From NCBI GenBank assembly GCA_947646735.1, contig CANTFK010000984.1:1-64000 (forward strand): a stretch of DNA of 64,000 nt. Reading direction: 5' to 3'. Shown here one piece after another: positions 1,413 to 37,793 of the stretch. A program made the translations under genes and the position numbers. Under the pieces are notes generated by a model that was not told where the DNA came from, did no database searches, and worked only from the letters and a program-made list of their open reading frames with translations. The DNA comes from Peronospora farinosa. Its lineage: Eukaryota; Oomycota; Peronosporomycetes; Peronosporales; Peronosporaceae. Numbering within the stretch: position 1 is the stretch's first letter; each line of letters begins with the position of its first letter.

Positions 1413-1674
1413 ACAATCAGAGCTTCGTATGATGAAGTGGCAGCTGGTGGGAGTTGCACGACTCTAACAACGTGTGAAGGCTTCTTATTGACCAGACAGT
1501 GCGATGAGGGAAGCTTCCGACTCGTGTTTGTAAAGATCATTTGAACGAAAACAGGAAGCATGTAGTTGTACGATGCATTCGTGAGACTGTTGGGAAGACG
1601 CACGTTTGCGTGCGGCACGTGGTTGTAGGTTACAATATGTGATTTGGTGGGCATGATCGGTTGAGAGAAGACGC

Positions 1675-1747
1675 TCCCAAATAGTCTAGGCGGTTAGGAT
1701 ACGTGGCTTTCACCCACGCGACCCGGGTTCGAGTCCCGGTTTGGGAA
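1675..1747 (+). tRNA. tRNA-Glu(TTC), array copy 1
   Basis: The cloverleaf is complete. The acceptor TCCCAAA pairs with TTTGGGA, followed by discriminator A. The anticodon stem is CGTGG/CCACG with loop CTTTCAC, anticodon TTC. The T arm is CCGGG-TTCGAGT-CCCGG. The D arm GTCT...GGAT has a 9-nt loop. The A box covers about 1682-1698, and the B box GGTTCGAGTCC lies at 1726-1736. No CCA is encoded, as in eukaryotic nuclear tRNA genes. It reads GAA and, by wobble, GAG. The tRNA matches the consensus, but its spacer is diverged: AAGATCATTTG variant, GGGAAGACG instead of GGGCCGACG, and extra bases near 1444-1455. Confidence 0.97.
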
Positions 1748-1766
1748 TTTTGCTTTTTCGCTTTTT
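1748..1766 (+). terminator. Triple oligo-T Pol III terminator of copy 1 (repeated in every unit)
   Basis: Runs of T4 (1748-1751), T5 (1754-1758) and T5 (1762-1766) begin directly after the discriminator base. RNA polymerase III stops at runs of four or more T. The same three runs follow the other tRNA copies. In copies 72 and 91 the base between the last two runs is changed so the second run becomes T6. Confidence 0.9.
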
Positions 1767-2067
1767 CTGCCGCCGACACGCCGTATGGTGTGACGACAGG
1801 GATGCTGGTACGCGACAATCAGAGCTTCGTATGATGAATTGGCAGCTTGCACGACTCTAACAACGTGTGAAGGCTTCTTATTGACCAGACAGTGCGATGA
1901 GGGAAGCTTCCGACTCGTGTTTGTGAGGATCATATGAACGAAAACAGGAAGCATGTAGTTGTGCGATGCATTCGTGAGACTGTTGGGCCGACGCACGTTT
2001 GCGTGCGGTATGTAGTTGTAGGTTACAATATGTGATTTGGTCGGCATGATCGGTTGAGAGAAGGCGC

Positions 2068-2140
2068 TCCCAAATAGTCTAGGCGGTTAGGATACGTGGC
2101 TTTCACCCACGCGACCCGGGTTCGAGTCCCGGTTTGGGAA
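2068..2140 (+). tRNA. tRNA-Glu(TTC), array copy 2
   Basis: Copy 2, consensus. Confidence 0.97.
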
Positions 2141-2460
2141 TTTTGCTTTTTCGCTTTTTCTGCCGCCGACACGCCGTATGGTGTGACGACAGGGATGCTG
2201 GTACGCGACAATCAGAGCTTCGTATGATGAATTGGCAGCTTGCACGACTCTAACAACGTGTGAAGGCTTCTTATTGACCAGACAGTGCGATGAGGGAAGC
2301 TTCCGACTCGTGTTTGTGAGGATCATATGAACGAAAACAGGAAGCATGTAGTTGTGCGATGCATTCGTGAGACTGTTGGGCCGACGCACGTTTGCGTGCG
2401 GTATGTAGTTGTAGGTTACGATATGTGATTTGGTCGGCATGATCGGTTGAGAGAAGGCGC

Positions 2461-2533
2461 TCCCAAATAGTCTAGGCGGTTAGGATACGTGGCTTTCACC
2501 CACGCGACCCGGGTTCGAGTCCCGGTTTGGGAA
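2461..2533 (+). tRNA. tRNA-Glu(TTC), array copy 3
   Basis: Copy 3, consensus; upstream ACGATA spacer variant. Confidence 0.97.
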
Positions 2534-2853
2534 TTTTGCTTTTTCGCTTTTTCTGCCGCCGACACGCCGTATGGTGTGACGACAGGGATGCTGGTACGCG
2601 ACAATCAGAGCTTCGTATGATGAATTGGCAGCTTGCACGACTCTAACAACGTGTGAAGGCTTCTTATTGACCAGACAGTGCGATGAGGGAAGCTTCCGAC
2701 TCGTGTTTGTGAGGATCATATGAACGAAAACAGGAAGCATGTAGTTGTGCGATGCATTCGTGAGACTGTTGGGCCGACGCACGTTTGCGTGCGGTATGTA
2801 GTTGTAGGTTACGATATGTGATTTGGTCGGCATGATCGGTTGAGAGAAGGCGC

Positions 2854-2926
2854 TCCCAAATAGTCTAGGCGGTTAGGATACGTGGCTTTCACCCACGCGA
2901 CCCGGGTTCGAGTCCCGGTTTGGGAA
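2854..2926 (+). tRNA. tRNA-Glu(TTC), array copy 4
   Basis: Copy 4, consensus; ACGATA variant. Confidence 0.97.
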
Positions 2927-3246
2927 TTTTGCTTTTTCGCTTTTTCTGCCGCCGACACGCCGTATGGTGTGACGACAGGGATGCTGGTACGCGACAATCA
3001 GAGCTTCGTATGATGAATTGGCAGCTTGCACGACTCTAACAACGTGTGAAGGCTTCTTATTGACCAGACAGTGCGATGAGGGAAGCTTCCGACTCGTGTT
3101 TGTGAGGATCATATGAACGAAAACAGGAAGCATGTAGTTGTGCGATGCATTCGTGAGACTGTTGGGCCGACGCACGTTTGCGTGCGGTATGTAGTTGTAG
3201 GTTACGATATGTGATTTGGTCGGCATGATCGGTTGAGAGAAGGCGC

Positions 3247-3319
3247 TCCCAAATAGTCTAGGCGGTTAGGATACGTGGCTTTCACCCACGCGACCCGGGT
3301 TCGAGTCCCGGTTTGGGAA
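3247..3319 (+). tRNA. tRNA-Glu(TTC), array copy 5
   Basis: Copy 5, consensus; ACGATA variant. Confidence 0.97.
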
Positions 3320-3639
3320 TTTTGCTTTTTCGCTTTTTCTGCCGCCGACACGCCGTATGGTGTGACGACAGGGATGCTGGTACGCGACAATCAGAGCTTC
3401 GTATGATGAATTGGCAGCTTGCACGACTCTAACAACGTGTGAAGGCTTCTTATTGACCAGACAGTGCGATGAGGGAAGCTTCCGACTCGTGTTTGTGAGG
3501 ATCATATGAACGAAAACAGGAAGCATGTAGTTGTGCGATGCATTCGTGAGACTGTTGGGCCGACGCACGTTTGCGTGCGGTATGTAGTTGTAGGTTACGA
3601 TATGTGATTTGGTCGGCATGATCGGTTGAGAGAAGGCGC

Positions 3640-3712
3640 TCCCAAATAGTCTAGGCGGTTAGGATACGTGGCTTTCACCCACGCGACCCGGGTTCGAGTC
3701 CCGGTTTGGGAA
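3640..3712 (+). tRNA. tRNA-Glu(TTC), array copy 6
   Basis: Copy 6, consensus; ACGATA variant. Confidence 0.97.
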
Positions 3713-4032
3713 TTTTGCTTTTTCGCTTTTTCTGCCGCCGACACGCCGTATGGTGTGACGACAGGGATGCTGGTACGCGACAATCAGAGCTTCGTATGAT
3801 GAATTGGCAGCTTGCACGACTCTAACAACGTGTGAAGGCTTCTTATTGACCAGACAGTGCGATGAGGGAAGCTTCCGACTCGTGTTTGTGAGGATCATAT
3901 GAACGAAAACAGGAAGCATGTAGTTGTGCGATGCATTCGTGAGACTGTTGGGCCGACGCACGTTTGCGTGCGGTATGTAGTTGTAGGTTACAATATGTGA
4001 TTTGGTCGGCATGATCGGTTGAGAGAAGGCGC

Positions 4033-4105
4033 TCCCAAATAGTCTAGGCGGTTAGGATACGTGGCTTTCACCCACGCGACCCGGGTTCGAGTCCCGGTTT
4101 GGGAA
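4033..4105 (+). tRNA. tRNA-Glu(TTC), array copy 7
   Basis: Copy 7, consensus. Confidence 0.97.
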
Positions 4106-4425
4106 TTTTGCTTTTTCGCTTTTTCTGCCGCCGACACGCCGTATGGTGTGACGACAGGGATGCTGGTACGCGACAATCAGAGCTTCGTATGATGAATTGG
4201 CAGCTTGCACGACTCTAACAACGTGTGAAGGCTTCTTATTGACCAGACAGTGCGATGAGGGAAGCTTCCGACTCGTGTTTGTGAGGATCATATGAACGAA
4301 AACAGGAAGCATGTAGTTGTGCGATGCATTCGTGAGACTGTTGGGCCGACGCACGTTTGCGTGCGGTATGTAGTTGTAGGTTACGATATGTGATTTGGTC
4401 GGCATGATCGGTTGAGAGAAGGCGC

Positions 4426-4498
4426 TCCCAAATAGTCTAGGCGGTTAGGATACGTGGCTTTCACCCACGCGACCCGGGTTCGAGTCCCGGTTTGGGAA
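4426..4498 (+). tRNA. tRNA-Glu(TTC), array copy 8
   Basis: Copy 8, consensus; ACGATA variant. Confidence 0.97.
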
Positions 4499-4818
4499 TT
4501 TTGCTTTTTCGCTTTTTCTGCCGCCGACACGCCGTATGGTGTGACGACAGGGATGCTGGTACGCGACAATCAGAGCTTCGTATGATGAATTGGCAGCTTG
4601 CACGACTCTAACAACGTGTGAAGGCTTCTTATTGACCAGACAGTGCGATGAGGGAAGCTTCCGACTCGTGTTTGTGAGGATCATATGAACGAAAACAGGA
4701 AGCATGTAGTTGTGCGATGCATTCGTGAGACTGTTGGGCCGACGCACGTTTGCGTGCGGTATGTAGTTGTAGGTTACAATATGTGATTTGGTCGGCATGA
4801 TCGGTTGAGAGAAGGCGC

Positions 4819-4891
4819 TCCCAAATAGTCTAGGCGGTTAGGATACGTGGCTTTCACCCACGCGACCCGGGTTCGAGTCCCGGTTTGGGAA
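4819..4891 (+). tRNA. tRNA-Glu(TTC), array copy 9
   Basis: Copy 9, consensus. Confidence 0.97.
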
Positions 4892-5211
4892 TTTTGCTTT
4901 TTCGCTTTTTCTGCCGCCGACACGCCGTATGGTGTGACGACAGGGATGCTGGTACGCGACAATCAGAGCTTCGTATGATGAATTGGCAGCTTGCACGACT
5001 CTAACAACGTGTGAAGGCTTCTTATTGACCAGACAGTGCGATGAGGGAAGCTTCCGACTCGTGTTTGTGAGGATCATATGAACGAAAACAGGAAGCATGT
5101 AGTTGTGCGATGCATTCGTGAGACTGTTGGGCCGACGCACGTTTGCGTGCGGTATGTAGTTGTAGGTTACAATATGTGATTTGGTCGGCATGATCGGTTG
5201 AGAGAAGGCGC

Positions 5212-5284
5212 TCCCAAATAGTCTAGGCGGTTAGGATACGTGGCTTTCACCCACGCGACCCGGGTTCGAGTCCCGGTTTGGGAA
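5212..5284 (+). tRNA. tRNA-Glu(TTC), array copy 10
   Basis: Copy 10, consensus. Confidence 0.97.
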
Positions 5285-5604
5285 TTTTGCTTTTTCGCTT
5301 TTTCTGCCGCCGACACGCCGTATGGTGTGACGACAGGGATGCTGGTACGCGACAATCAGAGCTTCGTATGATGAATTGGCAGCTTGCACGACTCTAACAA
5401 CGTGTGAAGGCTTCTTATTGACCAGACAGTGCGATGAGGGAAGCTTCCGACTCGTGTTTGTGAGGATCATATGAACGAAAACAGGAAGCATGTAGTTGTG
5501 CGATGCATTCGTGAGACTGTTGGGCCGACGCACGTTTGCGTGCGGTATGTAGTTGTAGGTTACAATATGTGATTTGGTCGGCATGATCGGTTGAGAGAAG
5601 GCGC

Positions 5605-5677
5605 TCCCAAATAGTCTAGGCGGTTAGGATACGTGGCTTTCACCCACGCGACCCGGGTTCGAGTCCCGGTTTGGGAA
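5605..5677 (+). tRNA. tRNA-Glu(TTC), array copy 11
   Basis: Copy 11, consensus; first unit with GGCGACAGG downstream. Confidence 0.97.
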
Positions 5678-5997
5678 TTTTGCTTTTTCGCTTTTTCTGC
5701 CGCCGACACGCCGTATGGTGTGGCGACAGGGATGCTGGTACGCGACAATCAGAGCTTCGTATGATGAATTGGCAGCTTGCACGACTCTAACAACGTGTGA
5801 AGGCTTCTTATTGACCAGACAGTGCGATGAGGGAAGCTTCCGACTCGTGTTTGTGAGGATCATATGAACGAAAACAGGAAGCATGTAGTTGTGCGATGCA
5901 TTCGTGAGACTGTTGGGCCGACGCACGTTTGCGTGCGGTATGTAGTTGTAGGTTACGATATGTGATTTGGTCGGCATGATCGGTTGAGAGAAGGCGC

Positions 5998-6070
5998 TCC
6001 CAAATAGTCTAGGCGGTTAGGATACGTGGCTTTCACCCACGCGACCCGGGTTCGAGTCCCGGTTTGGGAA
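5998..6070 (+). tRNA. tRNA-Glu(TTC), array copy 12
   Basis: Copy 12, consensus; ACGATA variant. Confidence 0.97.
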
Positions 6071-6390
6071 TTTTGCTTTTTCGCTTTTTCTGCCGCCGAC
6101 ACGCCGTATGGTGTGACGACAGGGATGCTGGTACGCGACAATCAGAGCTTCGTATGATGAATTGGCAGCTTGCACGACTCTAACAACGTGTGAAGGCTTC
6201 TTATTGACCAGACAGTGCGATGAGGGAAGCTTCCGACTCGTGTTTGTGAGGATCATATGAACGAAAACAGGAAGCATGTAGTTGTGCGATGCATTCGTGA
6301 GACTGTTGGGCCGACGCACGTTTGCGTGCGGTATGTAGTTGTAGGTTACAATATGTGATTTGGTCGGCATGATCGGTTGAGAGAAGGCGC

Positions 6391-6463
6391 TCCCAAATAG
6401 TCTAGGCGGTTAGGATACGTGGCTTTCACCCACGCGACCCGGGTTCGAGTCCCGGTTTGGGAA
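6391..6463 (+). tRNA. tRNA-Glu(TTC), array copy 13
   Basis: Copy 13, consensus. Confidence 0.97.
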
Positions 6464-6783
6464 TTTTGCTTTTTCGCTTTTTCTGCCGCCGACACGCCGT
6501 ATGGTGTGACGACAGGGATGCTGGTACGCGACAATCAGAGCTTCGTATGATGAATTGGCAGCTTGCACGACTCTAACAACGTGTGAAGGCTTCTTATTGA
6601 CCAGACAGTGCGATGAGGGAAGCTTCCGACTCGTGTTTGTGAGGATCATATGAACGAAAACAGGAAGCATGTAGTTGTGCGATGCATTCGTGAGACTGTT
6701 GGGCCGACGCACGTTTGCGTGCGGTATGTAGTTGTAGGTTACAATATGTGATTTGGTCGGCATGATCGGTTGAGAGAAGGCGC

Positions 6784-6856
6784 TCCCAAATAGTCTAGGC
6801 GGTTAGGATACGTGGCTTTCACCCACGCGACCCGGGTTCGAGTCCCGGTTTGGGAA
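6784..6856 (+). tRNA. tRNA-Glu(TTC), array copy 14
   Basis: Copy 14, consensus; GGCGACAGG variant. Confidence 0.97.
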
Positions 6857-7176
6857 TTTTGCTTTTTCGCTTTTTCTGCCGCCGACACGCCGTATGGTGT
6901 GGCGACAGGGATGCTGGTACGCGACAATCAGAGCTTCGTATGATGAATTGGCAGCTTGCACGACTCTAACAACGTGTGAAGGCTTCTTATTGACCAGACA
7001 GTGCGATGAGGGAAGCTTCCGACTCGTGTTTGTGAGGATCATATGAACGAAAACAGGAAGCATGTAGTTGTGCGATGCATTCGTGAGACTGTTGGGCCGA
7101 CGCACGTTTGCGTGCGGTATGTAGTTGTAGGTTACAATATGTGATTTGGTCGGCATGATCGGTTGAGAGAAGGCGC

Positions 7177-7249
7177 TCCCAAATAGTCTAGGCGGTTAGG
7201 ATACGTGGCTTTCACCCACGCGACCCGGGTTCGAGTCCCGGTTTGGGAA
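7177..7249 (+). tRNA. tRNA-Glu(TTC), array copy 15
   Basis: Copy 15, consensus. Confidence 0.97.
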
Positions 7250-7569
7250 TTTTGCTTTTTCGCTTTTTCTGCCGCCGACACGCCGTATGGTGTGACGACA
7301 GGGATGCTGGTACGCGACAATCAGAGCTTCGTATGATGAATTGGCAGCTTGCACGACTCTAACAACGTGTGAAGGCTTCTTATTGACCAGACAGTGCGAT
7401 GAGGGAAGCTTCCGACTCGTGTTTGTGAGGATCATATGAACGAAAACAGGAAGCATGTAGTTGTGCGATGCATTCGTGAGACTGTTGGGCCGACGCACGT
7501 TTGCGTGCGGTATGTAGTTGTAGGTTACAATATGTGATTTGGTCGGCATGATCGGTTGAGAGAAGGCGC

Positions 7570-7642
7570 TCCCAAATAGTCTAGGCGGTTAGGATACGTG
7601 GCTTTCACCCACGCGACCCGGGTTCGAGTCCCGGTTTGGGAA
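7570..7642 (+). tRNA. tRNA-Glu(TTC), array copy 16
   Basis: Copy 16, consensus. Confidence 0.97.
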
Positions 7643-7962
7643 TTTTGCTTTTTCGCTTTTTCTGCCGCCGACACGCCGTATGGTGTGACGACAGGGATGC
7701 TGGTACGCGACAATCAGAGCTTCGTATGATGAATTGGCAGCTTGCACGACTCTAACAACGTGTGAAGGCTTCTTATTGACCAGACAGTGCGATGAGGGAA
7801 GCTTCCGACTCGTGTTTGTGAGGATCATATGAACGAAAACAGGAAGCATGTAGTTGTGCGATGCATTCGTGAGACTGTTGGGCCGACGCACGTTTGCGTG
7901 CGGTATGTAGTTGTAGGTTACAATATGTGATTTGGTCGGCATGATCGGTTGAGAGAAGGCGC

Positions 7963-8035
7963 TCCCAAATAGTCTAGGCGGTTAGGATACGTGGCTTTCA
8001 CCCACGCGACCCGGGTTCGAGTCCCGGTTTGGGAA
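7963..8035 (+). tRNA. tRNA-Glu(TTC), array copy 17
   Basis: Copy 17, consensus. Confidence 0.97.
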
Positions 8036-8355
8036 TTTTGCTTTTTCGCTTTTTCTGCCGCCGACACGCCGTATGGTGTGACGACAGGGATGCTGGTACG
8101 CGACAATCAGAGCTTCGTATGATGAATTGGCAGCTTGCACGACTCTAACAACGTGTGAAGGCTTCTTATTGACCAGACAGTGCGATGAGGGAAGCTTCCG
8201 ACTCGTGTTTGTGAGGATCATATGAACGAAAACAGGAAGCATGTAGTTGTGCGATGCATTCGTGAGACTGTTGGGCCGACGCACGTTTGCGTGCGGTATG
8301 TAGTTGTAGGTTACAATATGTGATTTGGTCGGCATGATCGGTTGAGAGAAGGCGC

Positions 8356-8428
8356 TCCCAAATAGTCTAGGCGGTTAGGATACGTGGCTTTCACCCACGC
8401 GACCCGGGTTCGAGTCCCGGTTTGGGAA
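8356..8428 (+). tRNA. tRNA-Glu(TTC), array copy 18
   Basis: Copy 18, consensus. Confidence 0.97.
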
Positions 8429-8748
8429 TTTTGCTTTTTCGCTTTTTCTGCCGCCGACACGCCGTATGGTGTGACGACAGGGATGCTGGTACGCGACAAT
8501 CAGAGCTTCGTATGATGAATTGGCAGCTTGCACGACTCTAACAACGTGTGAAGGCTTCTTATTGACCAGACAGTGCGATGAGGGAAGCTTCCGACTCGTG
8601 TTTGTGAGGATCATATGAACGAAAACAGGAAGCATGTAGTTGTGCGATGCATTCGTGAGACTGTTGGGCCGACGCACGTTTGCGTGCGGTATGTAGTTGT
8701 AGGTTACAATATGTGATTTGGTCGGCATGATCGGTTGAGAGAAGGCGC

Positions 8749-8821
8749 TCCCAAATAGTCTAGGCGGTTAGGATACGTGGCTTTCACCCACGCGACCCGG
8801 GTTCGAGTCCCGGTTTGGGAA
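8749..8821 (+). tRNA. tRNA-Glu(TTC), array copy 19
   Basis: Copy 19, consensus. Confidence 0.97.
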
Positions 8822-9141
8822 TTTTGCTTTTTCGCTTTTTCTGCCGCCGACACGCCGTATGGTGTGACGACAGGGATGCTGGTACGCGACAATCAGAGCT
8901 TCGTATGATGAATTGGCAGCTTGCACGACTCTAACAACGTGTGAAGGCTTCTTATTGACCAGACAGTGCGATGAGGGAAGCTTCCGACTCGTGTTTGTGA
9001 GGATCATATGAACGAAAACAGGAAGCATGTAGTTGTGCGATGCATTCGTGAGACTGTTGGGCCGACGCACGTTTGCGTGCGGTATGTAGTTGTAGGTTAC
9101 AATATGTGATTTGGTCGGCATGATCGGTTGAGAGAAGGCGC

Positions 9142-9214
9142 TCCCAAATAGTCTAGGCGGTTAGGATACGTGGCTTTCACCCACGCGACCCGGGTTCGAG
9201 TCCCGGTTTGGGAA
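9142..9214 (+). tRNA. tRNA-Glu(TTC), array copy 20
   Basis: Copy 20, consensus. Confidence 0.97.
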
Positions 9215-9534
9215 TTTTGCTTTTTCGCTTTTTCTGCCGCCGACACGCCGTATGGTGTGACGACAGGGATGCTGGTACGCGACAATCAGAGCTTCGTATG
9301 ATGAATTGGCAGCTTGCACGACTCTAACAACGTGTGAAGGCTTCTTATTGACCAGACAGTGCGATGAGGGAAGCTTCCGACTCGTGTTTGTGAGGATCAT
9401 ATGAACGAAAACAGGAAGCATGTAGTTGTGCGATGCATTCGTGAGACTGTTGGGCCGACGCACGTTTGCGTGCGGTATGTAGTTGTAGGTTACAATATGT
9501 GATTTGGTCGGCATGATCGGTTGAGAGAAGGCGC

Positions 9535-9607
9535 TCCCAAATAGTCTAGGCGGTTAGGATACGTGGCTTTCACCCACGCGACCCGGGTTCGAGTCCCGGT
9601 TTGGGAA
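9535..9607 (+). tRNA. tRNA-Glu(TTC), array copy 21
   Basis: Copy 21, consensus. Confidence 0.97.
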
Positions 9608-9927
9608 TTTTGCTTTTTCGCTTTTTCTGCCGCCGACACGCCGTATGGTGTGACGACAGGGATGCTGGTACGCGACAATCAGAGCTTCGTATGATGAATT
9701 GGCAGCTTGCACGACTCTAACAACGTGTGAAGGCTTCTTATTGACCAGACAGTGCGATGAGGGAAGCTTCCGACTCGTGTTTGTGAGGATCATATGAACG
9801 AAAACAGGAAGCATGTAGTTGTGCGATGCATTCGTGAGACTGTTGGGCCGACGCACGTTTGCGTGCGGTATGTAGTTGTAGGTTACAATATGTGATTTGG
9901 TCGGCATGATCGGTTGAGAGAAGGCGC

Positions 9928-10000
9928 TCCCAAATAGTCTAGGCGGTTAGGATACGTGGCTTTCACCCACGCGACCCGGGTTCGAGTCCCGGTTTGGGAA
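9928..10000 (+). tRNA. tRNA-Glu(TTC), array copy 22
   Basis: Copy 22, consensus; GGCGACAGG variant. Confidence 0.97.
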
Positions 10001-10320
10001 TTTTGCTTTTTCGCTTTTTCTGCCGCCGACACGCCGTATGGTGTGGCGACAGGGATGCTGGTACGCGACAATCAGAGCTTCGTATGATGAATTGGCAGCT
10101 TGCACGACTCTAACAACGTGTGAAGGCTTCTTATTGACCAGACAGTGCGATGAGGGAAGCTTCCGACTCGTGTTTGTGAGGATCATATGAACGAAAACAG
10201 GAAGCATGTAGTTGTGCGATGCATTCGTGAGACTGTTGGGCCGACGCACGTTTGCGTGCGGTATGTAGTTGTAGGTTACAATATGTGATTTGGTCGGCAT
10301 GATCGGTTGAGAGAAGGCGC

Positions 10321-10393
10321 TCCCAAATAGTCTAGGCGGTTAGGATACGTGGCTTTCACCCACGCGACCCGGGTTCGAGTCCCGGTTTGGGAA
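10321..10393 (+). tRNA. tRNA-Glu(TTC), array copy 23
   Basis: Copy 23, consensus; the spacer after it is the first with AGCGAAAAC. Confidence 0.97.
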
Positions 10394-10713
10394 TTTTGCT
10401 TTTTCGCTTTTTCTGCCGCCGACACGCCGTATGGTGTGACGACAGGGATGCTGGTACGCGACAATCAGAGCTTCGTATGATGAATTGGCAGCTTGCACGA
10501 CTCTAACAACGTGTGAAGGCTTCTTATTGACCAGACAGTGCGATGAGGGAAGCTTCCGACTCGTGTTTGTGAGGATCATATGAGCGAAAACAGGAAGCAT
10601 GTAGTTGTGCGATGCATTCGTGAGACTGTTGGGCCGACGCACGTTTGCGTGCGGTATGTAGTTGTAGGTTACAATATGTGATTTGGTCGGCATGATCGGT
10701 TGAGAGAAGGCGC

Positions 10714-10786
10714 TCCCAAATAGTCTAGGCGGTTAGGATACGTGGCTTTCACCCACGCGACCCGGGTTCGAGTCCCGGTTTGGGAA
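10714..10786 (+). tRNA. tRNA-Glu(TTC), array copy 24
   Basis: Copy 24, consensus. Confidence 0.97.
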
Positions 10787-11106
10787 TTTTGCTTTTTCGC
10801 TTTTTCTGCCGCCGACACGCCGTATGGTGTGACGACAGGGATGCTGGTACGCGACAATCAGAGCTTCGTATGATGAATTGGCAGCTTGCACGACTCTAAC
10901 AACGTGTGAAGGCTTCTTATTGACCAGACAGTGCGATGAGGGAAGCTTCCGACTCGTGTTTGTGAGGATCATATGAACGAAAACAGGAAGCATGTAGTTG
11001 TGCGATGCATTCGTGAGACTGTTGGGCCGACGCACGTTTGCGTGCGGTATGTAGTTGTAGGTTACAATATGTGATTTGGTCGGCATGATCGGTTGAGAGA
11101 AGGCGC

Positions 11107-11179
11107 TCCCAAATAGTCTAGGCGGTTAGGATACGTGGCTTTCACCCACGCGACCCGGGTTCGAGTCCCGGTTTGGGAA
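11107..11179 (+). tRNA. tRNA-Glu(TTC), array copy 25
   Basis: Copy 25, consensus. Confidence 0.97.
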
Positions 11180-11499
11180 TTTTGCTTTTTCGCTTTTTCT
11201 GCCGCCGACACGCCGTATGGTGTGACGACAGGGATGCTGGTACGCGACAATCAGAGCTTCGTATGATGAATTGGCAGCTTGCACGACTCTAACAACGTGT
11301 GAAGGCTTCTTATTGACCAGACAGTGCGATGAGGGAAGCTTCCGACTCGTGTTTGTGAGGATCATATGAACGAAAACAGGAAGCATGTAGTTGTGCGATG
11401 CATTCGTGAGACTGTTGGGCCGACGCACGTTTGCGTGCGGTATGTAGTTGTAGGTTACAATATGTGATTTGGTCGGCATGATCGGTTGAGAGAAGGCGC

Positions 11500-15822: not shown

Positions 15823-15895
15823 TCCCAAATAGTCTAGGCGGTTAGGATACGTGGCTTTCACCCACGCGACCCGGGTTCGAGTCCCGGTTTGGGAA
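15823..15895 (+). tRNA. tRNA-Glu(TTC), array copy 37
   Basis: Copy 37, consensus. Confidence 0.97.
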
Positions 15896-28002: not shown

Positions 28003-28075
28003 TCCCAAATAGTCTAGGCGGTTAGGATACGTGGCTTTCACCCACTCGACCCGGGTTCGAGTCCCGGTTTGGGAA
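28003..28075 (+). tRNA. tRNA-Glu(TTC), array copy 68, anticodon-stem variant
   Basis: Copy 68 has CCACT in place of CCACG on the 3' side of the anticodon stem, giving a C27:U43 mismatch at the stem end. Boxes and terminators are intact. Confidence 0.92.
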
Positions 28076-28394
28076 TTTTGCTTTTTCGCTTTTTCTGCCG
28101 CCGACACGCCGTATGGTGTGGCGACAGGGATGCTGGTACGCGACAATCAGAGCTTCGTATGATGAAGTGGCAGCTTGCACGACTCTAACAACGTGTGAAG
28201 GCTTCTTATTGACCAGACAGTGCGATGAGGGAAGCTTCCGACTCGTGTTTGTGAAGATCATTTGAACGAAAACAGGAAGCATGTAGTTGTGCGATGCATT
28301 CGTGAGACTGTTGGGCCGACGCACGTTTCGTGCGGTACGTGGTTGTAGGTTACAATATGTGATTTGGTCGGCATGATCGGTTGAGAGAAGGCGC

Positions 28395-28467
28395 TCCCAA
28401 ATAGTCTAGGCGGTTAGGATACGTGGCTTTCACCCACGCGACCCGGGTTCGAGTCCCGGTTTGGGAA
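28395..28467 (+). tRNA. tRNA-Glu(TTC), array copy 69
   Basis: Copy 69, consensus; the spacer before it has the AAGATCATTTG variant also seen in the first unit. Confidence 0.97.
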
Positions 28468-28786
28468 TTTTGCTTTTTCGCTTTTTCTGCCGCCGACACG
28501 CCGTATGGTGTGGCGACAGGGATGCTGGTACGCGACAATCAGAGCTTCGTATGATGAAGTGGCAGCTTGCACGACTCTAACAACGTGTGAAGGCTTCTTA
28601 TTGACCAGACAGTGCGATGAGGGAAGCTTCCGACTCGTGTTTGTGAGGATCATATGAACGAAAACAGGAAGCATGTAGTTGTGCGATGCATTCGTGAGAC
28701 TGTTGGGCCGACGCACGTTTCGTGCGGTACGTGGTTGTAGGTTACAATATGTGATTTGGTCGGCATGATCGGTTGAGAGAAGGCGC

Positions 28787-28859
28787 TCCCAAATAGTCTA
28801 GGCGGTTAGGATACGTGGCTTTCACCCACTCGACCCGGGTTCGAGTCCCGGTTTGGGAA
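28787..28859 (+). tRNA. tRNA-Glu(TTC), array copy 70, anticodon-stem variant
   Basis: Copy 70 carries the C27:U43 mismatch. Confidence 0.92.
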
Positions 28860-29178
28860 TTTTGCTTTTTCGCTTTTTCTGCCGCCGACACGCCGTATGG
28901 TGTGGCGACAGGGATGCTGGTACGCGACAATCAGAGCTTCGTATGATGAAGTGGCAGCTTGCACGACTCTAACAACGTGTGAAGGCTTCTTATTGACCAG
29001 ACAGTGCGATGAGGGAAGCTTCCGACTCGTGTTTGTGAGGATCATATGAACGAAAACAGGAAGCATGTAGTTGTGCGATGCATTCGTGAGACTGTTGGGC
29101 CGACGCACGTTTCGTGCGGTACGTGGTTGTAGGTTACAATATGTGATTTGGTCGGCATGATCGGTTGAGAGAAGGCGC

Positions 29179-29251
29179 TCCCAAATAGTCTAGGCGGTTA
29201 GGATACGTGGCTTTCACCCACGCGACCCGGGTTCGAGTCCCGGTTTGGGAA
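29179..29251 (+). tRNA. tRNA-Glu(TTC), array copy 71
   Basis: Copy 71, consensus. Confidence 0.97.
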
Positions 29252-29570
29252 TTTTGCTTTTTCGCTTTTTCTGCCGCCGACACGCCGTATGGTGTGGCGA
29301 CAGGGATGCTGGTACGCGACAATCAGAGCTTCGTATGATGAAGTGGCAGCTTGCACGACTCTAACAACGTGTGAAGGCTTCTTATTGACCAGACAGTGCG
29401 ATGAGGGAAGCTTCCGACTCGTGTTTGTGAGGATCATATGAGCGAAAACAGGAAGCATGTAGTTGTGCGATGCATTCGTGAGACTGTTGGGCCGACGCAC
29501 GTTTCGTGCGGTACGTGGTTGTAGGTTACAATATGTGATTTGGTCGGCATGATCGGTTGAGAGAAGGCGC

Positions 29571-29643
29571 TCCCAAATAGTCTAGGCGGTTAGGATACGT
29601 GGCTTTCACCCACGCGACCCGGGTTCGAGTCCCGGTTTGGGAA
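29571..29643 (+). tRNA. tRNA-Glu(TTC), array copy 72
   Basis: Copy 72, consensus tRNA; the downstream spacer carries a 38-bp insertion at 29831-29868. Confidence 0.97.
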
Positions 29644-29999
29644 TTTTGCTTTTTTGCTTTTTCTGCCGCCGACACGCCGTATGGTGTGGCGACAGGGATG
29701 CTGGTACGCGACAATCAGAGCTTCGTATGATGAAGTGGCAGCTTGCACGACTCTAACAACGTGTGAAGGCTTCTTATTGACCAGACAATGCGATGAGGGA
29801 AGCTTCCGACTCGTGTTTGTGAGGATCATAGAAGGGTGTTTGAGATTGATCTACATAATCCTATCATATGAACGAAAACAGGAAGCATGTAGTTGTGCGA
29901 TGCATTCGTGAGACTGTTGGGCCGACGCACGTTTGCGTGCGGTATAGTTGTAGGTTACAATATGTGATTTGGTCGGCATGATCGGTTGAGAGAAGGCGC

Positions 30000-30072
30000 T
30001 CCCAAATAGTCTAGGCGGTTAGGATACGTGGCTTTCACCCACGCGACCCGGGTTCGAGTCCCGGTTTGGGAA
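30000..30072 (+). tRNA. tRNA-Glu(TTC), array copy 73
   Basis: Copy 73, consensus tRNA, 429 bp after copy 72; the downstream spacer has a distinctive block (GAGACCATCCGAG...GAATTAAGATC) shared only with copy 80. Confidence 0.97.
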
Positions 30073-30391
30073 TTTTGCTTTTTCGCTTTTTCTGCCGCCG
30101 ACACGCCGTATGGTGTGGCGACAGGGATGCTGGTACGAGACCATCCGAGCTTCGTATAATGAATTAAGATCTTGCACGACTCTAACAACGTGTGAAGGCT
30201 TCTTATTGACCAGACAGTGCGATGAGGGAAGCTTCCGACTCGTGTTTGTGAGGATCATATGAACGAAAACAGGAAGCATGTAGTTGTGCGATGCATTCGT
30301 GAGACTGTTGGGCCGACGCACGTTTCGTGCGGTACGTGGTTGTAGGTTACAATATGTGATTTGGTCGGCATGATCGGTTGAGAGAAGGCGC

Positions 30392-30464
30392 TCCCAAATA
30401 GTCTAGGCGGTTAGGATACGTGGCTTTCACCCACTCGACCCGGGTTCGAGTCCCGGTTTGGGAA
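30392..30464 (+). tRNA. tRNA-Glu(TTC), array copy 74, anticodon-stem variant
   Basis: Copy 74 carries the C27:U43 mismatch. Confidence 0.92.
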
Positions 30465-30773
30465 TTTTGCTTTTTCGCTTTTTCTGCCGCCGACACGCCG
30501 TATGGTGTGGCGACAGGGATGCTGGTACGCGACAATCAGAGCTTCGTATGATGAAGTGGCAGCTTGCACGACTCTAACAACGTGTGAAGGCTTCTTAGTG
30601 CGATGAGGGAAGCTTCCGACTCGTGTTTGTGAGGATCATATGAACGAAAACAGGAAGCATGTAGTTGTGCGATGCATTCGTGAGACTGTTGGGCCGACGC
30701 ACGTTTGCGTGCGGTACGGGGTTGTAGGTTACGATATGTGAATTGATCGGCATGATCGTTTGAGAGAAGGCGC

Positions 30774-30846
30774 TCCCAAATAGTCTAGGCGGTTAGGATA
30801 CGTGGCTTTCACCCACTCGACCCGGGTTCGAGTCCCGGTTTGGGAA
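30774..30846 (+). tRNA. tRNA-Glu(TTC), array copy 75, anticodon-stem variant
   Basis: Copy 75 carries the C27:U43 mismatch; 382 bp after copy 74. Confidence 0.92.
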
Positions 30847-31157
30847 TTTTGCTTTTTCGCTTTTTCTGCCGCCGACACGCCGTATGGTGTGACGACAGGG
30901 ATGCTGGTACGCGACAATCAGAGCTTCGTATGATGAATTGGCAGCTTGCACGACTCTAACAACGTGTGAAGGCTTCTTAAAGTGCGATGAGGGAAGCTTC
31001 CGACTCGTGTTTGTGAGGATCATATGAACGAAAACAGGAAGCATGTAGTTGTGCGATGCATTCGTGAGACTGTTGGGCCGACGCACGTTTGCGTGCGGTA
31101 CGGGGTTGTAGGTTACGATATGTGAATTGATCGGCATGATCGTTTGAGAGAAGGCGC

Positions 31158-31230
31158 TCCCAAATAGTCTAGGCGGTTAGGATACGTGGCTTTCACCCAC
31201 GCGACCCGGGTTCGAGTCCCGGTTTGGGAA
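31158..31230 (+). tRNA. tRNA-Glu(TTC), array copy 76
   Basis: Copy 76, consensus; 384-bp spacing. Confidence 0.97.
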
Positions 31231-31539
31231 TTTTGCTTTTTCGCTTTTTCTGCCGCCGACACGCCGTATGGTGTGACGACAGGGATGCTGGTACGCGACA
31301 ATCAGAGCTTCGTATGATGAAGTGGCAGCTTGCACGACTCTAACAACGTGTGAAGGCTTCTTAGTGCGATGAGGGAAGCTTCCGACTCGTGTTTGTGAGG
31401 ATCATATGAACGAAAACAGGAAGCATGTAGTTGTGCGATGCATTCGTGAGACTGTTGGGCCGACGCACGTTTGCGTGCGGTACGGGGTTGTAGGTTACGA
31501 TATGTGAATTGATCGGCATGATCGTTTGAGAGAAGGCGC

Positions 31540-31612
31540 TCCCAAATAGTCTAGGCGGTTAGGATACGTGGCTTTCACCCACGCGACCCGGGTTCGAGTC
31601 CCGGTTTGGGAA
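31540..31612 (+). tRNA. tRNA-Glu(TTC), array copy 77
   Basis: Copy 77, consensus; 382-bp spacing. Confidence 0.97.
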
Positions 31613-31923
31613 TTTTGCTTTTTCGCTTTTTCTGCCGCCGACACGCCGTATGGTGTGACGACAGGGATGCTGGTACGCGACAATCAGAGCTTCGTATGAT
31701 GAATTGGCAGCTTGCACGACTCTAACAACGTGTGAAGGCTTCTTAAAGTGCGATGAGGGAAGCTTCCGACTCGTGTTTGTGAGGATCATATGAACGAAAA
31801 CAGGAAGCATGTAGTTGTGCGATGCATTCGTGAGACTGTTGGGCCGACGCACGTTTGCGTGCGGTACGGGGTTGTAGGTTACGATATGTGAATTGATCGG
31901 CATGATCGTTTGAGAGAAGGCGC

Positions 31924-31996
31924 TCCCAAATAGTCTAGGCGGTTAGGATACGTGGCTTTCACCCACGCGACCCGGGTTCGAGTCCCGGTTTGGGAA
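31924..31996 (+). tRNA. tRNA-Glu(TTC), array copy 78
   Basis: Copy 78, consensus; 384-bp spacing. Confidence 0.97.
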
Positions 31997-32315
31997 TTTT
32001 GCTTTTTCGCTTTTTCTGCCGCCGACACGCCGTATGGTGTGACGACAGGGATGCTGGTACGCGACAATCAGAGCTTCGTATGATGAATTGGCAGCTTGCA
32101 CGACTCTAACAACGTGTGAAGGCTTCTTATTGACCAGACAGTGCGATGAGGGAAGCTTCCGACTCGTGTTTGTGAGGATCATATGAACGAAAACAGGAAG
32201 CATGTAGTTGTGCGATGCATTCGTGAGACTGTTGGGCCGACGCACGTTTCGTGCGGTACGTGGTTGTAGGTTACAATATGTGATTTGGTCGGCATGATCG
32301 GTTGAGAGAAGGCGC

Positions 32316-32388
32316 TCCCAAATAGTCTAGGCGGTTAGGATACGTGGCTTTCACCCACTCGACCCGGGTTCGAGTCCCGGTTTGGAAA
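32316..32388 (+). tRNA. tRNA-Glu(TTC), array copy 79, doubly mutated
   Basis: Copy 79 has the C27:U43 mismatch and TTTGGAA in the 3' acceptor strand, giving a C2:A71 mismatch. Function is doubtful. Confidence 0.8.
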
Positions 32389-32708
32389 TTTTGCTTTTTC
32401 GCTTTTTCTGCCGCCGACACGCCGTATGGTGTGACGACAGGGATGCTGGTACGCGACAATCAGATCTTCGTATGATGAATTGGCAGCTTGCACGACTCTA
32501 ACAACGTGTGAAGGCTTCTTATTGACCAGACAGTGCGATGAGGGAAGCTTCCGAATCGTGTTTGTGAAGATCATATGAACGAAAACAGGAAGCATGTAGT
32601 TGTGCGATGCATTCGTGAGACTGTTGGGCCGACGCACGTTTGCGTGCGGTATGTAGTTGTAGGTTACAATATGTGATTTGGTCGGCATGATCGGTTGAGA
32701 GAAGGCGC

Positions 32709-32781
32709 TCCCAAATAGTCTAGGCGGTTAGGATACGTGGCTTTCACCCACGCGACCCGGGTTCGAGTCCCGGTTTGGGAA
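32709..32781 (+). tRNA. tRNA-Glu(TTC), array copy 80
   Basis: Copy 80, consensus tRNA; shares the distinctive downstream spacer of copy 73, 2,709 bp earlier. Confidence 0.97.
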
Positions 32782-33100
32782 TTTTGCTTTTTCGCTTTTT
32801 CTGCCGCCGACACGCCGTATGGTGTGGCGACAGGGATGCTGGTACGAGACCATCCGAGCTTCGTATAATGAATTAAGATCTTGCACGACTCTAACAACGT
32901 GTGAAGGCTTCTTATTGACCAGACAGTGCGATGAGGGAAGCTTCCGACTCGTGTTTGTGAAGATCATTTGAACGAAAACAGGAAGCATGTAGTTGTGCGA
33001 TGCATTCGTGAGACTGTTGGGCCGACGCACGTTTCGTGCGGTACGTGGTTGTAGGTTACAATATGTGATTTGGTCGGCATGATCGGTTGAGAGAAGGCGC

Positions 33101-33173
33101 TCCCAAATAGTCTAGGCGGTTAGGATACGTGGCTTTCACCCACTCGACCCGGGTTCGAGTCCCGGTTTGGGAA
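33101..33173 (+). tRNA. tRNA-Glu(TTC), array copy 81, anticodon-stem variant
   Basis: Copy 81 carries the C27:U43 mismatch. Confidence 0.92.
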
Positions 33174-33493
33174 TTTTGCTTTTTCGCTTTTTCTGCCGCC
33201 GACACGCCGTATGGTGTGACGACAGGGATGCTGGTACGCGACAATCAGAGCTTCGTATGATGAATTGGCAGCTTGCACGACTCTAACAACGTGTGAAGGC
33301 TTCTTATTGACCAGACAGTGCGATGAGGGAAGCTTCCGACTCGTGTTTGTGAGGACCATATGAACGAAAACAGGAAGCATGTAGTTGTGCGATGCATTTG
33401 TGAGACTGTTGGGCCGACGCACGTTTGCGTGCGGTATGTAGTTGTAGGTTACAATATGTGATTTGGTCGGCATGATCGGTTGAGAGAAGGCGC

Positions 33494-33566
33494 TCCCAAA
33501 TAGTCTAGGCGGTTAGGATACGTGGCTTTCACCCACTCGACCCGGGTTCGAGTCCCGGTTTGGAAA
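33494..33566 (+). tRNA. tRNA-Glu(TTC), array copy 82, doubly mutated
   Basis: Copy 82 has the same two changes as copy 79 (C27:U43 and C2:A71). Confidence 0.8.
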
Positions 33567-33875
33567 TTTTGCTTTTTCGCTTTTTCTGCCGCCGACACGC
33601 CGTATGGTGTGACGACAGGGATGCTGGTACGCGACAATCAGAGCTTCGTATGATGAAGTGGCAGCTTGCACGACTCTAACAACGTGTGAAGGCTTCTTAG
33701 TGCGATGAGGGAAGCTTCCGACTCGTGTTTGTGAGGATCATATGAACGAAAACAGGAAGCATGTAGTTGTGCGATGCATTCGTGAGACTGTTGGGCCGAC
33801 GCACGTTTGCGTGCGGTACGGGGTTGTAGGTTACGATATGTGAATTGATCGGCATGATCGTTTGAGAGAAGGCGC

Positions 33876-33948
33876 TCCCAAATAGTCTAGGCGGTTAGGA
33901 TACGTGGCTTTCACCCACGCGACCCGGGTTCGAGTCCCGGTTTGGGAA
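33876..33948 (+). tRNA. tRNA-Glu(TTC), array copy 83
   Basis: Copy 83, consensus; 382-bp spacing. Confidence 0.97.
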
Positions 33949-34259
33949 TTTTGCTTTTTCGCTTTTTCTGCCGCCGACACGCCGTATGGTGTGACGACAG
34001 GGATGCTGGTACGCGACAATCAGAGCTTCGTATGATGAATTGGCAGCTTGCACGACTCTAACAACGTGTGAAGGCTTCTTAAAGTGCGATGAGGGAAGCT
34101 TCCGACTCGTGTTTGTGAGGATCATATGAACGAAAACAGGAAGCATGTAGTTGTGCGATGCATTCGTGAGACTGTTGGGCCGACGCACGTTTGCGTGCGG
34201 TACGGGGTTGTAGGTTACGATATGTGAATTGATCGGCATGATCGTTTGAGAGAAGGCGC

Positions 34260-34332
34260 TCCCAAATAGTCTAGGCGGTTAGGATACGTGGCTTTCACCC
34301 ACGCGACCCGGGTTCGAGTCCCGGTTTGGGAA
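34260..34332 (+). tRNA. tRNA-Glu(TTC), array copy 84
   Basis: Copy 84, consensus; 384-bp spacing. Confidence 0.97.
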
Positions 34333-34652
34333 TTTTGCTTTTTCGCTTTTTCTGCCGCCGACACGCCGTATGGTGTGACGACAGGGATGCTGGTACGCGA
34401 CAATCAGAGCTTCGTATGATGAATTGGCAGCTTGCACGACTCTAACAACGTGTGAAGGCTTCTTATTGACCAGACAGTGCGATGAGGGAAGCTTCCGACT
34501 CGTGTTTGTGAGGATCATATGAACGAAAACAGGAAGCATGTAGTTGTGCGATGCATTCGTGAGACTGTTGGGCCGACGCACGTTTGCGTGCGGTATGTAG
34601 TTGTAGGTTACAATATGTGATTTGGTCGGCATGATCGGTTGAGAGAAGGCGC

Positions 34653-34725
34653 TCCCAAATAGTCTAGGCGGTTAGGATACGTGGCTTTCACCCACGCGAC
34701 CCGGGTTCGAGTCCCGGTTTGGGAA
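34653..34725 (+). tRNA. tRNA-Glu(TTC), array copy 85
   Basis: Copy 85, consensus; followed by a hybrid unit that lost its tRNA (junction near 35044). Confidence 0.97.
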
Positions 34726-35245
34726 TTTTGCTTTTTCGCTTTTTCTGCCGCCGACACGCCGTATGGTGTGACGACAGGGATGCTGGTACGCGACAATCAG
34801 AGCTTCGTATGATGAATTGGCAGCTTGCACGACTCTAACAACGTGTGAAGGCTTCTTATTGACCAGACAGTGCGATGAGGGAAGCTTCCGACTCGTGTTT
34901 GTGAGGATCATATGAGCGAAAACAGGAAGCATGTAGTTGTGCGATGCATTCGTGAGACTGTTGGGCCGACGCACGTTTGCGTGCGGTACGGGGTTGTAGG
35001 TTACGATATGTGAATTGGTCGGCATGATCGGTTGAGAGAAGGCGTGTGAAGGCTTCTTATTGACCAGACAGTGCGATGAGGGAAGCTTCCGACTCGTGTT
35101 TGTGAGGATCATATGAGCGAAAACAGGAAGCATGTAGTTGTGCGATGCATTCGTGAGACTGTTGGGCCGACGCACGTTTCGTGCGGTACGTGGTTGTAGG
35201 TTACAATATGTGATTTGGTCGGCATGATCGGTTGAGAGAAGGCGC

Positions 35246-35318
35246 TCCCAAATAGTCTAGGCGGTTAGGATACGTGGCTTTCACCCACTCGACCCGGGTT
35301 CGAGTCCCGGTTTGAGAA
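35246..35318 (+). tRNA. tRNA-Glu(TTC), array copy 86, doubly mutated
   Basis: Copy 86 has C27:U43 and TTTGAGA in the 3' acceptor strand (C3:A70 mismatch). Confidence 0.8.
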
Positions 35319-35827
35319 TTTTGCTTTTTCGCTTTTTCTGCCGCCGACACGCCGTATGGTGTGACGACAGGGATGCTGGTACGCGACAATCAGAGCTTCG
35401 TATGATGAAGTGGCAGCTTGCACGACTCTAACAACGTGTGAAGGCTTCTTAGTGCGATGAGGGAAGCTTCCGACTCGTGTTTGTGAGGATCATATGAGCG
35501 AAAACAGGAAGCATGTAGTTGTGCGATGCATTCGTGAGACTGTTGGGCCGACGCACGTTTGCGTGCGGTACGGGGTTGTAGGTTACGATATGTGAATTGA
35601 TCGGCATGATCGGTTGAGAGAAGGCGTGTGAAGGCTTCTTATTGACCAGACAGTGCGATGAGGGAAGCTTCCGACTCGTGTTTGTGAGGATCATATGAGC
35701 GAAAACAGGAAGCATGTAGTTGTGCGATGCATTCGTGAGACTGTTGGGCCGACGCACGTTTCGTGCGGTACGTGGTTGTAGGTTACAATATGTGATTTGG
35801 TCGGCATGATCGGTTGAGAGAAGGCGC

Positions 35828-35900
35828 TCCCAAATAGTCTAGGCGGTTAGGATACGTGGCTTTCACCCACTCGACCCGGGTTCGAGTCCCGGTTTGAGAA
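35828..35900 (+). tRNA. tRNA-Glu(TTC), array copy 87, doubly mutated
   Basis: Copy 87 has the same two changes as copy 86 and also follows a tRNA-less hybrid unit. Confidence 0.8.
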
Positions 35901-36209
35901 TTTTGCTTTTTCGCTTTTTCTGCCGCCGACACGCCGTATGGTGTGGCGACAGGGATGCTGGTACGCGACAATCAGAGCTTCGTATGATGAAGTGGCAGCT
36001 TGCACGACTCTAACAACGTGTGAAGGCTTCTTAGTGCGATGAGGGAAGCTTCCGACTCGTGTTTGTGAGGATCATATGAACGAAAACAGGAAGCATGTAG
36101 TTGTGCGATGCATTCGTGAGACTGTTGGGCCGACGCACGTTTGCGTGCGGTACGGGGTTGTAGGTTACGATATGTGAATTGATCGGCATGATCGTTTGAG
36201 AGAAGGCGC

Positions 36210-36282
36210 TCCCAAATAGTCTAGGCGGTTAGGATACGTGGCTTTCACCCACGCGACCCGGGTTCGAGTCCCGGTTTGGGAA
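36210..36282 (+). tRNA. tRNA-Glu(TTC), array copy 88
   Basis: Copy 88, consensus. Confidence 0.97.
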
Positions 36283-36591
36283 TTTTGCTTTTTCGCTTTT
36301 TCTGCCGCCGACACGCCGTATGGTGTGGCGACAGGGATGCTGGTACGCGACAATCAGAGCTTCGTATGATGAAGTGGCAGCTTGCACGACTCTAACAACG
36401 TGTGAAGGCTTCTTAGTGCGATGAGGGAAGCTTCCGACTCGTGTTTGTGAGGATCATATGAACGAAAACAGGAAGCATGTAGTTGTGCGATGCATTCGTG
36501 AGACTGTTGGGCCGACGCACGTTTGCGTGCGGTACGTGGTTGTAGGTTACGATATGTGAATTGATCGGCATGATCGTTTGAGAGAAGGCGC

Positions 36592-36664
36592 TCCCAAATA
36601 GTCTAGGCGGTTAGGATACGTGGCTTTCACCCACGCGACCCGGGTTCGAGTCCCGGTTTGGGAA
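36592..36664 (+). tRNA. tRNA-Glu(TTC), array copy 89
   Basis: Copy 89, consensus. Confidence 0.97.
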
Positions 36665-36975
36665 TTTTGCTTTTTCGCTTTTTCTGCCGCCGACACGCCG
36701 TATGGTGTGGCGACAGGGATGCTGGTACGCGACAATCAGAGCTTCGTATGATGAAGTGGCAGCTTGCACGACTCTAACAACGTGTGAAGGCTTCTTAAAG
36801 TGCGATGAGGGAAGCTTCCGACTCGTGTTTGTGAGGATCATATGAACGAAAACAGGAAGCATGTAGTTGTGCGATGCATTCGTGAGACTGTTGGGCCGAC
36901 GCACGTTTGCGTGCGGTACGGGGTTGTAGGTTACGATATGTGAATTGATCGGCATGATCGTTTGAGAGAAGGCGC

Positions 36976-37048
36976 TCCCAAATAGTCTAGGCGGTTAGGA
37001 TACGTGGCTTTCACCCACGCGACCCGGGTTCGAGTCCCGGTTTGGGAA
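36976..37048 (+). tRNA. tRNA-Glu(TTC), array copy 90
   Basis: Copy 90, consensus. Confidence 0.97.
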
Positions 37049-37368
37049 TTTTGCTTTTTCGCTTTTTCTGCCGCCGACACGCCGTATGGTGTGACGACAG
37101 GGATGCTGGTACGCGACAATCAGAGCTTCGTATGATGAAGTGGCAGCTTGCACGACTCTAACAACGTGTGAAGGCTTCTTATTGACCAGACAGTGCGATG
37201 AGGGAAGCTTCCGACTCGTGTTTGTGAGGATCATATGAGCGAAAACAGGAAGCATGTAGTTGTGCGATGCATTCGTGAGACTGTTGGGCCGACGCACGTT
37301 TGCGTGCGGTATGTAGTTGTAGGTTACAATATGTGATTTGGTCGGCATGATCGGTTGAGAGAAGGCGC

Positions 37369-37441
37369 TCCCAAATAGTCTAGGCGGTTAGGATACGTGG
37401 CTTTCACCCACGCGACCCGGGTTCGAGTCCCGGTTGGGGAA
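37369..37441 (+). tRNA. tRNA-Glu(TTC), array copy 91, acceptor-stem variant
   Basis: Copy 91 has TTGGGGA in place of TTTGGGA, giving an A5:G68 mismatch in the acceptor stem. It is the last full-length copy. Confidence 0.88.
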
Positions 37442-37761
37442 TTTTGCTTTTTTGCTTTTTCTGCCGCCGACACGCCGTATGGTGTGACGACAGGGATGCT
37501 GGTACGCGACAATCAGAGCTTCGTATGATGAATTGGCAGCTTGCACGACTATAACAACGTGTGAAGGCTTCTTATTGACCAGACAGTGCGATGAGGGAAG
37601 CTTCCGACTCGTGTTTGTGAAGATCATATGAGCGAAAACAGGAAGCATGTAGTTGTGCGATGCATTCGTGAGACTGTTGGGCCGACGCACGTTTGCGTGC
37701 GGTACGGGGTTGTAGGTTACGATATGTGAATTGATCGGCATGATCGTTTGAGAGAAGGCGC

Positions 37762-37793
37762 TCCCAAATAGTCTAGGCGATTAGGATACGTGG
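37762..37793 (+). pseudogene. Truncated tRNA-Glu at the right edge of the array (copy 92)
   Basis: Only the first 32 nt remain, ending after the 5' side of the anticodon stem, with a G-to-A change in the D loop (GGCGATTAGG). Unrelated sequence with gypsy remnants follows at once. There is no anticodon, T arm, B box or terminator, so it cannot work as a gene. Confidence 0.93.

Follow-up and report, generated by a model that had tools for sequence, protein, structure and literature searches.

The closest described counterparts of the locus reported here, a tandem array of transfer RNA (tRNA) genes of the type tRNA-Glu(TTC) in Peronospora farinosa, are tRNA gene arrays of other oomycetes. The array lies in a stretch of 64,000 nucleotides, referred to below as the window, which covers positions 1 to 64,000 of the forward strand of contig CANTFK010000984.1 (assembly GCA_947646735.1). 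In the account of Phytophthora infestans given by Matson et al. 2022 (PMC9584435), monomeric arrays likewise carry one gene per unit in near-identical repeats, and the few variants are grouped, often at or near one edge of the array. The combinations Thr(CGT)/Trp(CCA)/Ser(GCT) and Gln(CTG)/Gln(TTG) reported there recur in P. farinosa, but that work concerns another species, and its section 9 account of arrays makes no mention of a Glu(TTC) family. For Peronospora effusa, which belongs to the same genus, the passages on tRNA clusters give 33-39 clusters per isolate, 10-970 near-identical genes and consensus units of 284-1,070 bp, with each family in one place (PMC11540230). These clusters were read as similar to short interspersed nuclear elements (SINEs), with open reading frames (ORFs), some of them RXLR-like, between genes, whereas no dispersed copies, tail or longer-than-chance ORF were found for the P. 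farinosa array.

Arrays in more distant organisms share fewer features with the P. farinosa locus. Nearly all tRNA genes of Entamoeba are described as lying in tandem arrays, which concerted evolution has most likely kept homogeneous. Their units contain up to 5 genes and, in E. histolytica and E. dispar, short tandem repeats between the genes (PMC2652664), whereas the P. farinosa unit has one gene and no such repeats. A role of the Entamoeba arrays at chromosome ends is put forward in the same text as a proposal only (PMC2652664). The tRNA gene (tDNA) repeat at human 1q23.3 also consists of tandem tRNA units in variable copy number, but its units are 7.3 kb long, contain five tRNA genes each and are bound by CTCF (PMC4041453). 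The Arabidopsis Ser/Tyr cluster, again of tandemly repeated tRNA genes, is reported to be silenced in most tissues (PMC12308677). The organisation is already published for Phytophthora and for the genus Peronospora, and the array described here is a further case. Judging by the literature searched, in which no description of the P. farinosa array was found, the present account adds the species and the isoacceptor, together with the junctions to retroelements and a test of the SINE reading. In the available text of two other papers, tRNA counts are given for the mitochondrion only (Peronosclerospora sorghi, PMC9997571) or tRNA is mentioned a single time, in the methods (PMC12844528).

The array is very probably the nuclear tRNA-Glu(TTC) multigene family of P. 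farinosa, organised as one tandem array like most multi-copy families seen in this genome. Its main parts are as follows.

1413..37793, + strand: 393-bp units in tandem, each bearing a single tRNA-Glu(TTC) gene, 91 complete genes and 1 truncated (ARAGORN, Tandem Repeats Finder, Rfam)
2068..2140, + strand: representative tRNA-Glu(TTC) gene of 73 nt, the sequence common to 81 of the 91 genes
2141..2460, + strand: representative 320-bp spacer, with T-runs immediately 3' of the gene
28003..37441, + strand: variant-rich right part
34653..35827, + strand: two compound units of 593 and 582 bp (34653-35245 and 35246-35827), each with an extra spacer segment without tRNA
37762..37793, + strand: final tRNA gene, broken off at nucleotide 32 where it meets the right-hand repeat

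All 91 tRNA genes identified by ARAGORN in the window are tRNA-Glu(TTC) genes on the + strand, spanning positions 1675-37441. Every one of them scores above the 29-bit Rfam cut-off for tRNA, the range being 52.4 to 62.3 bits (62.3 for 81 genes, 58.4 for five, 56.8 for one, and 53.4 and 52.4 for two each). An earlier note, which had proposed from the sequence a single-isoacceptor array of 91 intact genes in one orientation, is borne out in this respect. Tandem Repeats Finder reported a period of 393 bp as the sole period, and hence no short-period tandem repeats inside the array. There are 92 gene starts, the final one truncated, and the 91 start-to-start intervals are 393 bp (69), 392 bp (10), 382 bp (5), 384 bp (4), and 429, 593 and 582 bp (one each). 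The further statement that every unit carries a complete tRNA needs two corrections: the two compound units hold an extra segment that lacks a tRNA, and the last gene is incomplete.

In the units read, the 73-nt gene is followed by runs of T4, T5 and T5 and then by the remainder of the spacer, in agreement with the triple oligo-T terminators described earlier. The genes have the features of a functional RNA polymerase III (Pol III) gene, namely a cloverleaf, a T-run terminator and what we take to be the A and B boxes, which were matched to the box consensus by eye; transcription itself is predicted from these features. Among the ATG frames of the tandem unit, the longest comprises 117 amino acids, lies on the minus strand and is uninterrupted in 69 copies of the unit; this length is also attained in 26 of 300 dinucleotide shuffles, however, and coding beyond chance was not found in the spacer. 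A protein-coding spacer was rejected on this ground, the frame being also partly the reverse of the tRNA itself, and the spacer of about 320 bp is probably non-coding, as had been claimed.

Variation is unevenly distributed along the array. The ten genes that differ from the common sequence carry G44T alone (5), G44T with G71A (2), G44T with G70A (2) or T68G (1). One acceptor-stem mismatch is present in 5 of the 91 genes, and no variant is close to the tRNA cut-off. All ten variants, together with all three odd-length units, are found among the last 24 genes; for the variants, the hypergeometric probability is 3e-7, with copies treated as independent. The first 66 units are variable at 6 of 320 spacer sites and at none of the 73 tRNA sites, and the last 25 units at 29 of 320 and 4 of 73, respectively. 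The farther apart two units lie, the more substitutions distinguish them on average, with means of 2.5 for adjacent units and 7.2 for units 80 apart. This is the pattern that would be expected from unequal crossing-over and conversion, and it resembles that of the P. infestans monomeric arrays as described in the text cited above (PMC9584435). The earlier suggestion that recent homogenisation has played a part is borne out.

The genome was searched in the window's own assembly (46.85 Mb in 274 contigs), in which the window contig is C264. The tRNA family search scored the best 63 of 2736 candidates, and at least 100 places were listed for the pattern searches. A pattern for the D-arm and anticodon of Glu(TTC) gave 151 matches in the genome, and the 97 perfect ones are on two contigs, C264 (91) and C49 (6). 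The other 54 carry 1-3 mismatches; three of these are among the matches listed, all in a Glu(CTC) array on C49, from which 47 genes are known, and a reversed control pattern gave 8 matches. There seem to be few if any Glu(TTC) genes outside the C264 array and C49, as far as can be judged with a pattern that a strongly diverged gene would escape, and the array is apparently the sole source of this isoacceptor, the C49 copies aside.

Other isoacceptors were surveyed with ARAGORN on fetched stretches, with Leu, Asp and His-Ala taken from short samples. The Glu(CTC) array on C49 consists of 47 genes in a 607-bp unit, and 13 Lys(TTT) genes are arranged in a 1170-bp unit on C229. A Gln array with a 179-bp unit occupies C247:166.8-193.4 kb and accounts for 125 of the 127 ARAGORN calls there. 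Its anticodons CTG (65) and TTG (60) are mixed irregularly; in addition, one unit reads as Lys(CTT), and another is called with a 4-base anticodon. The short samples gave units of 774 bp for His-Ala, 728 bp for Leu(AAG), ~550 bp for Leu(CAG) on two contigs and 725 bp for Asp. Four sets of Thr(CGT)/Ser(GCT)/Trp(CCA), two per orientation, are located at C248:600-640 kb. Non-arrayed in the fetched stretches are Ile(TAT), present as one inverted pair, and Arg(TCT), present as a single gene. Most multi-copy tRNAs in these stretches are arrayed, and the Glu(TTC) array is ordinary for this genome. Its earlier portrayal as an exception to a rule of dispersed tRNA genes does not hold, given also the published arrays of P. 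infestans and P. effusa. Two exact B-box forms matched the genome 648 and 279 times, compared with 50 and 38 times for the reversed control, and scattered single matches are also among the B-box places listed. A series of B-box matches on C36 with a spacing of ~4 kb was not counted as an array, since ARAGORN found no tRNA in the 301-base stretch C36:9800-10100.

Both borders of the array are junctions with repeats, not natural array ends.

473..1412, + strand: long terminal repeat (LTR)-like repeat whose end is the left array border, 99% identical to C49:123624-124564
37794..38938, + strand: diverged gypsy-type repeat at the right border, 76-81% identical to other genome copies (best 40 of 183 candidates scored)

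For the comparison of flanks, six other copies of the left repeat and four copies of the right-hand repeat were fetched. The left repeat is widespread, as a search with window positions 1-1412 reported 104 matches (best 39 of 1274 candidates scored). Base 1412 is its true end because all six fetched copies diverge from the window there, as does the copy at C49:106.9 kb (7/7 directly after this base), and the array therefore begins where the left repeat stops. The junctions of the left repeat with the array show TG...CA ends and a 4-base repeat ACAA, as read by eye. On C49, the 99% identical copy of the left repeat joins unit position 141, as in the window, and five tRNA-Glu(TTC) units come after it (C49:124565-126533; fetched stretch L029, 4566-6534). 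These stop at unit position 145 against the start of a second LTR-like repeat. A single further unit at C49:108 kb (stretch L028, ~3238) is cut at the same place as the five-unit block. Two histories would each account for the junctions shared by C49 and the window: a single insertion with subsequent unequal exchange, or insertion at one site more than once. The right-hand repeat has a frame resembling an integrase C-terminal region (read by eye), and it is truncated in the window, since 5 of 5 relatives share additional sequence upstream of the junction point. The contig starts within the left repeat, 1.4 kb from the array. A telomeric array was considered and rejected as unsupported, this nearby contig end falling in a dispersed, many-copy LTR-like repeat. 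Window positions 1-673 contain an inverted LTR-like pair (5-208 and 469-673, 84% identical), either a nested insertion or an assembly fold-back.

The simplest functional reading of the array is that of a housekeeping multigene family. Each unit would be an autonomous Pol III gene, with internal A and B boxes and a T-run terminator, joined to an inert spacer, and the array copies would be transcribed. Unequal crossing-over and conversion between neighbouring units would set both copy number and sequence, such exchange homogenising the interior of the array while older variants remain at an edge. The copies would be generated by recombination and not by transposition, and retroelements bound or interrupt the array.

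Several results weigh against this reading. The tRNA is not significantly less diverse than the rest of the unit in the window array, where it ranks 50 among 393 circular 73-column windows. When the window array and C49 are pooled, 4 of 73 tRNA sites and 37 of 320 spacer sites are variable (p 0.09), the spacer count leaving out the three odd-length units. The isolated Glu(TTC) gene at C49:108 kb has one tRNA substitution, and variation is greater within the tRNA stretch than outside it in the Gln array, with its two mixed anticodons, as well as in 8 Lys units. Gene number is likewise out of line with codon use, as the seven window ORFs contain 94 GAA and 180 GAG codons, compared with 97 TTC and 47 CTC genes assembled. 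To these is added the possibility, weighed below, that the length of the array is in part an artefact. In the Glu(CTC) array, the tRNA stretch ranks 78 of 607 for low diversity. In the five diverged C49 units, however, there are 0 substitutions in 365 tRNA bases and 37 in 1352 spacer bases; the spacer rate would predict ~10 for the tRNA. This contrast would favour selection on the tRNA, the five units being related to each other. Selection cannot be demonstrated from the array alone, where the tRNA ranks 50 of 393, and the earlier argument from intact copies to selection is not borne out by the array; of the tests made only the five C49 units point to selection.

A SINE-like nature of the unit, with the tRNA as a passenger and the array as the product of mobile-element expansion, has been put forward in the published account of the P. 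effusa clusters (PMC11540230) but is very unlikely here. The 393-bp unit does fall within the P. effusa range of 284-1,070 bp (PMC11540230), and its copies are numerous and nearly identical. However, no dispersed copies were found by a whole-unit genome search (best 39 of 54 candidates scored; very common words were skipped, and C264 was absent from the list). Its 45 matches are all on C49, where 8 correspond to parts of the unit and the other 37 to Glu(CTC) genes, these being confined to the tRNA. An A-rich or simple-repeat 3' tail is likewise absent from the unit, because its longest A run is only 4, and the array contains no short-period repeat. The tRNA is canonical and seemingly the sole source of an essential isoacceptor. 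The P. effusa authors themselves regard their elements as probably unable to mobilise and ascribe the variation to non-allelic homologous recombination (PMC11540230).

A chromatin role as a TFIIIC/Pol III insulator or nuclear organiser, with the array kept large for that role and tRNA output secondary, has a precedent in the human 1q23.3 tDNA repeat, described as binding CTCF and implicated as a boundary (PMC4041453), and a role in nuclear or chromatin organisation is also raised in the P. infestans account (PMC9584435). The sequence of the P. farinosa array offers nothing that would tell such a role apart from a side effect of having many Pol III genes, and no obvious common motif was seen by eye in the 50 bases upstream and 40 bases downstream of genes in nine array samples; this explanation is held to be highly improbable. 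That the array length is partly an assembly artefact, i.e. an expanded or collapsed repeat, is suggested by the end of the contig inside a repeat 1.4 kb to the left, by at least three other arrays that come within ~1 unit of where their contigs end (on C247, on C229 and at the left end of C49), and by the mere 6 spacer sites that vary in the first 66 units. However, the variants are ordered along the array and divergence rises with distance, and in P. infestans the tRNA gene numbers of representative families are stated to match read depth (PMC9584435); an artefact appears extremely unlikely.

As to the tRNA-Glu(TTC) multigene family itself, its gene number does not track codon use, and a dosage device, as the earlier note had entertained, gains no support from copy number, since GAG codons outnumber GAA codons in the window while more TTC than CTC genes are assembled. 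The Glu(CTC) count of 47 is a lower bound because C49 begins within one unit length of that array. The correlation between gene number and codon use reported for P. infestans is likewise modest, with R 0.41 in the text cited (PMC9584435). Copy numbers in such arrays are in the tens to hundreds, out of step with codon use. A broader proposal, that oomycete isoacceptors are held as single-locus arrays in which unequal exchange keeps each uniform and copy number changes fast, with many copies serving as silent chromatin organisers, is regarded as unlikely. If it were true, array length would be a fast-evolving setting of decoding or of nuclear architecture, decoupled from codon use. The published readings of such loci conflict, being genuine tRNA genes in P. 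infestans and SINE-like elements in P. effusa. An array that seems to hold nearly all Glu(TTC) genes, together with separate arrays for other isoacceptors, supports the tRNA-gene reading and would speak against masking such loci as transposable elements.

To the right of the array, the gypsy-type remnant is followed by a CFAP20-domain gene, the order of neighbours given previously.

40059..40619, + strand: CFAP20-domain gene, the first Pfam-supported gene to the right of the array (CFA20 domain, E 2.4e-51)

A regular-expression search for peptide motifs of CFAP20 had no hit, although Pfam detects the domain. A gene at 61470-63308 (+), ~24 kb from the array, encodes a TFIIIC B-block-binding domain (PF04182) and a GTF3C1 winged-helix domain, and its linkage to the tRNA array is probably due to chance. 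Positions 57333-58370 (+) hold an ORF of 345 amino acids for a CLP1 RNA kinase, 97% of which aligns at 100% identity with a public Peronospora farinosa protein; the latter comprises 438 amino acids, and the gene model therefore extends past the ORF. At 40820-44245 (-), UDP-glucose pyrophosphorylase and phosphoglucomutase domains are found within a single frame of 1141 amino acids.

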